A stretch of DNA of 21,824 nucleotides. Source: a virus. Within the stretch, counting starts at the first letter, position 1. Every line of letters starts with the position of its first letter. This document shows, piece after piece, positions 404-2,265 of this stretch. The DNA lies in IMG/VR virus record IMGVR_UViG_3300030101_002133, positions 1-21,824 of that record; one strand, given 5' to 3'. A model generated the notes under the pieces. The model was not told the origin of the DNA. It saw only the letters and a list, made by a program, of their open reading frames with translations, and searched no databases. Both the position numbers and the translations under genes were made by a program.

Positions 404-577
404 CTAGCCTTGGGTGTTGTTTCTCACTTCTGCCACATAATGATTGAATTTGCTAATGTTGAAATATGGGTTTTGTTTCATCAAAAACCTAATCATCGCC
501 TTAACGATTTCATCATCATTTGATTTAGTGAACTGCCCTAGAATTTTAGCAATTTCTATGAAATGCTTTCTAGTCAT
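404..577 (-). CDS. Small conserved-type phage protein, 57 aa
   Basis: Reading the minus strand from ATG 577 gives 57 codons beginning MTRKHFIEIAKIL and ending NNTQG, with stop at 404-406. The Shine-Dalgarno AGGAGC lies 5-10 nt upstream. The start overlaps the end of the preceding gene by 8 bp, so translation is probably coupled. The pattern (MTRK.F..IAK..., then NPYFNISKFN) resembles a recurrent small phage protein type with MTRK near the start and an N-P-x-F-x-x-x-x-F motif. Its function is unknown to me. It is the last gene before the terminator. Confidence 0.75.
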   Translation of the reverse strand: MTRKHFIEIAKILGQFTKSNDDEIVKAMIRFLMKQNPYFNISKFNHYVAEVRNNTQG

Positions 578-986
578 TTCTGCTCCTTTCTAATTCCAAG
601 CCTTTAAGGATCTTAATGCTTGAATTTATTCTTTCTTGTAGTTCCTCATTTTCTCTTTTTAATTCCCAGTATCTTAATTGCATTTTCCAGGAAGATTTAG
701 AAAGGTTATCATATCGCATTTTTAACCTTTCCAAAGTAAGAGCATAAGGGGTTTTTTTATATTTATCGCCTAAACTAGTTAAGTAATACAAACCCTCCTT
801 ATTTTTAGCAATTATACCTTTTGTTTTTAATGTCCAAAGGTTGGTGCAATACCAACCATTAGGGGCTTTTCTTGGGTTGTCTACCCCTTGCCCTTTCTTT
901 GATTGGTAATAAGTGAAGTTTTGCATTTGTTTGTATGTCATAGGGCTTTTTTTAAGCCTATAGCATAGTTTACTAATGATAGTCAT
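570..986 (-). CDS. Winged-helix/coiled-coil protein, 138 aa
   Basis: Residues about 14-75 look like a winged helix: an MTYKQMQNFTYYQ helix, a GWYCTNLWTLKTKGII recognition-type helix, then a short wing and a YYLTSLGDKY strand. Residues about 85-130 (MRYDNLSKSS through RENEELQERI) form a predicted amphipathic coiled coil. The family is consistent with a DNA-binding regulator or replication-associated phage protein; the target is unknown. Translation starts at ATG 986, preceded by a strong AAAGGAGG. The gene lies directly downstream of the hammerhead-like RNA (cleavage site between 1084 and 1083). If that RNA cleaves, this message would start with a 5'-hydroxyl and a roughly 97-nt leader. The next gene overlaps its end. 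Confidence 0.75.
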   Translation of the reverse strand: MTIISKLCYRLKKSPMTYKQMQNFTYYQSKKGQGVDNPRKAPNGWYCTNLWTLKTKGIIAKNKEGLYYLTSLGDKYKKTPYALTLERLKMRYDNLSKSSWKMQLRYWELKRENEELQERINSSIKILKGLELERSRND

Positions 987-1034: not shown

Positions 1035-1118
1035 GGCTATTCTCTGCTCATCAGACACCCGACAGAATAGCCTTAATGGGTGTGAACTAGGGACAATTAA
1101 GCCCCTAGTTTTCGCCTA
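1035..1118 (-). ncRNA. Hammerhead ribozyme, type II, with loop I pseudoknot
   Basis: On the minus strand all core elements occur in order. GAAA is at 1113-1110. Stem III is AACTAGGGGC (1109-1101) with GTCCCTAGTT (1094-1085) around loop TTAATT; with A15.1-U16.1 it gives about 10 pairs, one of them G·U. The cleavage-site C is 1084, context UUC^A. Stem I is ACACCC (1083-1078) with GGGTGT (1060-1055). CTGATGA is at 1054-1048. Every invariant core base (C3 U4 G5 A6 G8 A9, G12 A13 A14, H17) is present. Stem II is the open stem and is weak: two G-C pairs (1047-1114, 1046-1115), then tandem G/A mismatches. A 9-bp pseudoknot links GGCTATTCT in loop I (1072-1064) to AGAATAGCC (1043-1035), matching the known loop I/stem II contacts of active hammerheads. 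The 5' edge overlaps the stop codon of the 49-aa gene. Self-cleavage itself is inferred. Confidence 0.85.
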
Positions 1119-1265
1119 CTTTTGTTTTTTGATTTCCTTTTTAAATAGTCTTTTAGCCTCCGAAATAGTGTGATAATAAAAAACCATTTTAAAATAATTA
1201 TCATCAACTAAAGCAGATAAAACCAAACTCCCATTTATCTTATTTTTTTCTATATTTATTTCCAT
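1116..1265 (-). CDS. Small hypothetical protein, 49 aa
   Basis: ATG 1265 on the minus strand opens 49 codons: MEINIEKNKINGSLVLSALV, then YFKMVFYYHTISEAKRLFKK and a basic end, with TAG at 1118-1116. A strong Shine-Dalgarno TAAGGAGG lies about 7 nt upstream, inside the end of the preceding gene, whose stop abuts this start. The layout (short strand, turn, strand, then a helix S-EAKRLFKKEIKKQK) resembles small accessory proteins common in phage early operons. I assign no function. Its stop codon overlaps the first bases of the hammerhead-like RNA, so cleavage would leave this gene's mRNA with a cyclic-phosphate end after the stable stem III hairpin. Confidence 0.7.
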   Translation of the reverse strand: MEINIEKNKINGSLVLSALVDDNYFKMVFYYHTISEAKRLFKKEIKKQK

Positions 1266-1886
1266 TTATCTTACCTCCTTATTTTTAAAGTCTCTTACAA
1301 TCTCAATTGATACATTGAAAGACTTGCCACAATCATCACAACCCCAATGCTCCAATTCTCCACATATTAACTCTTCCACATATTCAATGTTCTTGCAGTC
1401 TTTAGGGCATTTATTTTGCTTACTAGCCCACTCATCAAAGACGAAGACAACATTGGCTTTAAGTTCGTTAATATCATCTTCATTAAGATTGTAAATCACT
1501 GGGAATTGAATTAAATCGTGTGCTTTATCTAATACAACATTTTGTAATTTAAGTTCATTTTTAAAGCACATTTCGGCATATAAACCATTACCTCCATACC
1601 TTGTATAATCAAACCCTTTTTGATGTCTTGCAATGATTTCTGCAAGTCCATAAATGTTTGATTGATAAGATGCAATTTCTTCGGTGCTTTTACAATCTAG
1701 GCAATAATATTCTTCAATATGACTTTGATTAAATAAGCCTTTAACCTCATAATCAAACTCAACATTGATACTGCCACAATCACTGCAAGTGGTTTCATCT
1801 TTATAATGAATACAAGAGCAAGAAGTTAAATACTTGCCCTCTTCATATTTAGTTGCCACACCTTGCATTATATTATTATAACTCAT
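1266..1886 (-). CDS. Cys-rich zinc-ribbon-like protein, 206 aa
   Basis: The N-terminal part has C23/C25, CSDC (C34, C37) and CLDC (C62, C65), spaced as in a zinc ribbon. The C-terminal part has C160/C164, C175 and CDDCGKSF (C183, C186), a second ribbon-like knuckle. The middle is a plain mixed domain. Such proteins usually bind nucleic acid or stabilise a fold with zinc; the role here is unknown. An ATG at 1901 would add five residues (MRRRK), but ATG 1886 has GAGGAGGAGG just upstream and is preferred. The start overlaps the 3' end of the upstream membrane-protein gene by 11 bp, which implies translational coupling. Confidence 0.7.
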   Translation of the reverse strand: MSYNNIMQGVATKYEEGKYLTSCSCIHYKDETTCSDCGSINVEFDYEVKGLFNQSHIEEYYCLDCKSTEEIASYQSNIYGLAEIIARHQKGFDYTRYGGNGLYAEMCFKNELKLQNVVLDKAHDLIQFPVIYNLNEDDINELKANVVFVFDEWASKQNKCPKDCKNIEYVEELICGELEHWGCDDCGKSFNVSIEIVRDFKNKEVR

Positions 1887-2265
1887 CTTCCTCCTCCTCA
1901 TCTTTTACATAAGACATTGCTAGAGTTTGAAGTTCTTCTTGAGTGTCTTCTATCACTTGCTCATAATCTAGACCATCATATTCTTCGCCATTATATTCGA
2001 ATATTTCCCCATCATATATTTTGTATTTAATGGTAAAATCATAATCATCTTCAACAAACTCTAATTCGTTAATCTCTTGCTCATATTCCAACTCTGTTTG
2101 ATACATCATAATTGCAACTAGTAAACCAAAAACACACATTACAAACCAATTCAAAAGCAATGGGTTTGCTTGGTTAAATTGCATCATGAAAGGTATGACA
2201 ATCATACCCATTGCACAAACTACCATACAAAATACTAGCATTGATTTTAATATTATACTTCTCAT
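1876..2265 (-). CDS. Two-helix membrane protein with acidic tail, 129 aa
   Basis: Two hydrophobic segments (about residues 5-29 and 36-55) form a hairpin in the membrane with a short N/Q/P loop between. The remaining 70 residues are strongly acidic, with Glu/Asp/Tyr-rich stretches and a final DEEEEDEL. This looks like an inner-membrane protein with a soluble acidic domain. Candidate roles, by inference only, are superinfection exclusion or host takeover. It is the first gene of the leftward operon. Its start ATG 2265 is preceded by AGGAGAG. No confident promoter was found upstream; a large inverted repeat ending in seven T (2326-2381) lies in its leader or promoter region. Confidence 0.65.
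   Translation of the reverse strand: MRSIILKSMLVFCMVVCAMGMIVIPFMMQFNQANPLLLNWFVMCVFGLLVAIMMYQTELEYEQEINELEFVEDDYDFTIKYKIYDGEIFEYNGEEYDGLDYEQVIEDTQEELQTLAMSYVKDEEEEDEL

Follow-up and report, generated by a model that had tools for sequence, protein, structure and literature searches.

A candidate type II hammerhead ribozyme with a loop I pseudoknot between two genes of a leftward phage operon

Prokaryotic hammerhead ribozymes are persistently associated with phage genomes, and their role has been described as an open question (PMC6155905). The 21,824-nucleotide stretch of viral DNA analysed here (the window, from IMG/VR record IMGVR_UViG_3300030101_002133) raises the question of what such an element would do between two genes of one operon, where a preliminary description had placed it. 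The placement was supported, as the genes from 2265 to 404 are all leftward and a terminator-like hairpin follows at 377-344. The genes of this leftward module, only tentatively early, code for unnamed small proteins and are transcribed away from the packaging and structural genes, with the rightward genes leading from a sigma-like protein at 2624 to the terminase, head and tail genes. The first gene of the rightward packaging operon (2624-2929) encodes a protein of 101 aa in which a sigma-70 region 4 domain is recognised (Pfam 1.1e-6; PHROG sigma factor). The features of the leftward operon that surround the site are as follows.

1266-1901, minus strand: upstream gene, 211 aa, without a confident family assignment; in relatives the ribozyme comes immediately after its stop codon.
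1116-1265, minus strand: small ORF of 49 aa, which translates without a stop and whose stop codon abuts the ribozyme.
570-986, minus strand: downstream gene, 138 aa, likewise without a confident family assignment; identity to its relatives is 61-79%.
377-344, minus strand: terminator-like hairpin of 15 bp with a T run, closing the leftward operon; found by a simple scan, with one such hairpin seen and 1.8 expected in shuffles.

When the minus strand was checked base by base, the coordinates given earlier for the core, stems, cleavage site and pseudoknot all proved correct, and every part of a type II hammerhead was present.

1117-1035, minus strand: hammerhead element, whole.
1115-1114, minus strand: stem II 3' strand GC, pairing with GC at 1047-1046 (from the sequence and the RF02276 alignment).
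1113-1110, minus strand: core GAAA (G12 A13 A14 A15.1), with identical bases in the viral contigs L003, L004, L006 and L068 described below.
1110-1101 with 1094-1085, minus strand: stem III hairpin of 10 bp, of which A1110 (A15.1) is the first base.
1100-1095, minus strand: stem III loop UUAAUU.
1084/1083, minus strand: predicted cleavage site C1084^A1083, placed relative to the core, with C1084 as H17.
1083-1078 with 1060-1055, minus strand: stem I of 6 bp, with the 17-nt loop I.
1054-1048, minus strand: core CUGAUGA, invariant among relatives.
1072-1064 with 1043-1035, minus strand: 9-bp pseudoknot between GGCUAUUCU in loop I and AGAAUAGCC in the 3' flank.

The CUGAUGA and GAAA boxes, the A15.1-U16.1 pair and a cleavage base at H17 are thus all in place. 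The order of the parts and the RF02276 alignment define the topology as type II, in which stems I and III are closed by loops and stem II is open. Stem III is far more stable than shuffled sequences (hairpin 1085-1110, -15.4 kcal/mol, z -5.7), and only a two-base linker separates the stem II 5' strand GC (1047-1046) from AGAAUAGCC. A pseudoknot between loop I and the 3' tail is a common, not universal, feature of type II hammerheads. The predicted minimum-energy structure is an alternative fold without the core, given by a folding program that cannot model pseudoknots.

A search with the 138-aa downstream protein identified six viral contigs, and in all of them the element lies between the same pair of genes. 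Two of these carry it unchanged, and the remaining four provide three further distinct versions (L003; L004, identical to L005; and L006), with downstream proteins 79%, 79% and 61% identical to that of the window in L003, L004 and L006, respectively. The core is unchanged throughout, and H17 is C in the window and L006 and A in L003 and L004. Covariation was assessed from stem I through the end of the pseudoknot in a hand-registered alignment of the four distinct sequences, three of them close, with N padding for the pseudoknot of L006, which is one base shorter. In stem I and the pseudoknot, every one of the 59 countable cells holds a standard pair; for example, pair 2 of stem I is CG, UG or UA among the relatives. 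Both sides had changed at six pairs, as compared with a shuffled mean of 1.8, though figures from shuffling a hand-made alignment of only four sequences are indicative. When the partner strand was slid by 1-3 bases, 30-52% of positions were paired and 0-1 pairs showed a double-sided change. Five of the nine pseudoknot pairs are altered on both sides in relatives and none is broken, which bears out the support that the preliminary description had drawn from this helix.

The sequence of stem III is wholly different, with 10 bp in the window as against 15-16 bp in the relatives; each version nevertheless pairs well and has a fold of much greater stability than shuffled sequences. Compensatory change is thus seen in stem I and the pseudoknot, and in stem III it takes the form of sequences that are unlike yet paired. 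The comparison of relatives proposed at the outset thus came out in favour of a ribozyme, with stem I and the pseudoknot compensated and the core bases intact. Neither the window nor the element had a useful blast match among annotated phages, and the 138-aa protein had no match there. A terS-like protein (A3) led to two further near relatives (L089 and L090), whose contigs end short of the site, and to distant relatives (L091-L094), which showed no hammerhead; no relatives of the same protein were found in bacterial genomes.

On the 3' side of the cleavage site, the ribozyme of the window shares 92-96% identity with L003 and L004, as compared with 36-40% on the 5' side (GCGAAA to H17; 1084-1115), and the exchange junction would therefore fall at the cleavage site. 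The 49-aa ORF is missing at this position in L003, L004 and L006, where the ribozyme directly follows the larger gene, and was not found elsewhere in viral contigs beyond the two near-identical ones. Hence, the half of the ribozyme 5' of the cleavage site appears to have been exchanged between relatives. With four versions available, the position of the junction may reflect either a mechanism or a constant functional core flanked by free sequence.

The position of the element relative to the upstream stop codon is relevant to how it might act. In the window, the TAG at 1118-1116 lies 0 nt before the stem II GC, and the distance is a few nt in L003 and L004 and at most 8 nt in L006. A terminating ribosome, given the size of its footprint, would therefore extend over GAAA and into the first part of stem III. 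This arrangement, found in every relative, could be read as that of a structured intercistronic RNA with a hammerhead-like fold in which cleavage is gated or does not take place, for example because upstream translation blocks folding until the ribosome leaves the stop codon. Such a role is considered unlikely, as the entire catalytic core is invariant while the helix sequences drift, which argues for catalysis rather than mere structure, and the adjacency of the stop codon may simply reflect a compact genome. Similarly doubtful is a wider proposal, in which the ribozyme would make a translation-gated cut right behind the stop codon. The cleavage site would in addition mark the point where phages have swapped upstream cassettes (the small ORF and stem III) while the 3' half and the downstream gene stay fixed.

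Whether the element could be a chance or decayed look-alike depends on its statistical standing. The Rfam scan with hammerhead models suggested in the preliminary description was successful in part. Hammerhead_II (RF02276) was matched over its full length (1-66/66) and was the sole family with E<=1 in the whole window, but the score of 27.6 bits falls short of the 37-bit gathering score, which is a curation threshold and not a structural feature; a default Rfam search would therefore miss the element. The corresponding E values were 9.6e-4 for 301 nt searched against all Rfam families, 0.07 for the window against all families, and 2.1e-5 for this one family in the 27,275-base virus record. The same model scores L003-L005 at 19.8-19.9 bits and gives no match in L006, where the descriptor does find the hammerhead.

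In the window, the descriptor scan returned a single match, at the hammerhead site. Its expected frequency was estimated from both strands of 2.13 Gb of random sequence with the dinucleotide make-up of the window. When 5 or more pairs were required in stem I and 6 or more in stem III, the core occurred 172 times, or ~0.002 per window; raising the requirement for stem III to 8 pairs left 18 occurrences. None was left when stem III had to have 10 pairs or more, or when 8 or more pairs in stem III were combined with 9 or more in the pseudoknot. The claim that core and helices would rarely arise together is thereby borne out.

The short stem II, with two Watson-Crick pairs, had been regarded as the weak point of the element. 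This assessment was not upheld. Stem II has three pairs in L003 and L004 and four in L006, and stems reduced to two pairs are common in pseudoknotted type II hammerheads (Perreault 2011, PMC3088659). For one metagenomic ribozyme of this type, in which stem II has one pair and the pseudoknot six, cleavage at >1.2 per minute at 0.5 mM Mg2+ is reported, and activity is lost when stem II is lengthened or the pseudoknot disrupted (PMC3088659). In the light of these ribozymes, a 2-bp stem II with a strong pseudoknot is an expected design.

The bare core pattern is a poor guide by itself, as seen when viral contigs were scanned for GCGAAA...CTGATGAGCAGA. Nearly all of the 55 stretches found were chance coding DNA without helices, and L068 was the sole match outside the known relatives in which both helices were present. 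A look-alike would be in keeping with such matches, with the Rfam score under threshold and with the short stem II, but it is contradicted by the random-sequence estimate and by conservation with compensatory changes in relatives, and can be considered very improbable. An intrinsic terminator or an RNase III type processing hairpin, for which the strong 10-bp stem III alone would be suitable, is equally hard to credit, since no G+C-rich hairpin with a T run was found at the site (CACACCC follows stem III, and the terminator scan reports none there) and the core, stem I and pseudoknot would be left unexplained.

Taken together, the Rfam model, the chance estimate and the compensatory changes in syntenic relatives support the original type II call. 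It is highly probable that the element is a genuine type II hammerhead with a typical pseudoknot, and its predicted cis cleavage at C1084^A1083 most likely splits the leftward phage operon mRNA. On the basis of structure, conservation, covariation and position, the RNA very probably cleaves itself between C1084 and A1083, and the proposed consequence would be to separate the fates of the two genes. The ribozyme would split the polycistronic leftward mRNA just behind the stop codon. The 3' end of the upstream mRNA would then lie 32 nt beyond the stop codon, bear a 2',3'-cyclic phosphate and be capped by the stem III hairpin. The downstream product, which encodes the 138-aa and 57-aa proteins, would start with a 5'-hydroxyl, followed by the stem I hairpin and the pseudoknot. 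It would gain a 97-nt 5' leader from A1083, a stretch in which the ribosome-binding site AGGAGG precedes the ATG, and the two halves could decay and be translated independently.

This hammerhead is similar to type II hammerheads described previously (RF02276; PMC3088659) in its permuted order, open stem II and full set of core bases. Likewise shared are the very short stem II, the pseudoknot from loop I to the tail just downstream of stem II, and the intergenic position in phage or prophage genes (PMC3088659). It differs in its lower Rfam score and in the length of the pseudoknot, which is 9 bp as compared with the four or more counted in PMC3088659 and six in the example tested there. Ribozymes of the same architecture have shown activity in vitro, and expression in E. 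coli also led to cleavage of hammerheads located between prophage genes (PMC3088659); 4 of 18 candidates that fit the consensus gave no cleavage in vitro (Perreault 2011, PMC3088659). Tandem prophage hammerheads of Agrobacterium tumefaciens, Clostridium scindens and Azorhizobium caulinodans likewise lie between genes of a polycistronic phage-type transcript, but there two or three surround a gene (PMC3088659), whereas the 27-kb record has one copy.

Accordingly, the pseudoknot, short stem II and phage operon setting have been described before (Perreault 2011, PMC3088659). What is less ordinary is that 0-8 nt separate the upstream stop codon from the start of the predicted ribozyme, and that the 5' half of the ribozyme has apparently been exchanged between relatives. 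The locus offers a clean case, in which a single ribozyme keeps its place in a short operon and shows compensatory change across related viruses. As a stop codon lies before this one conserved ribozyme and a ribosome-binding site after it, the mRNA-splitting idea is directly testable in a reporter.

The pattern match L068 belongs to an independent 57.8-kb viral contig (IMGVR_UViG_3300036846_000250), which was reached only by the ribozyme pattern and by no protein search. Unlike the record of the window, with its one copy, it has two type II hammerheads (L095 and L096). These score 36.8 and 28.8 bits, both under the RF02276 cut-off though well-formed, and one resembles the hammerhead of the window in the GC/GC pairs with which stem II begins, its pseudoknot having 5 bp. 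The motif GGGTNTCTGATGAGCAG was matched in 11 stretches, those outside the relatives being due to chance. A separate observation concerns the viral contigs L034, L045 and L062, which have in common the stretch GAGACGCTTCCTGCCTGATGAGCAGAGAGCGTCTCTTTT, a terminator-like hairpin that contains CTGATGAG, apparently by chance.
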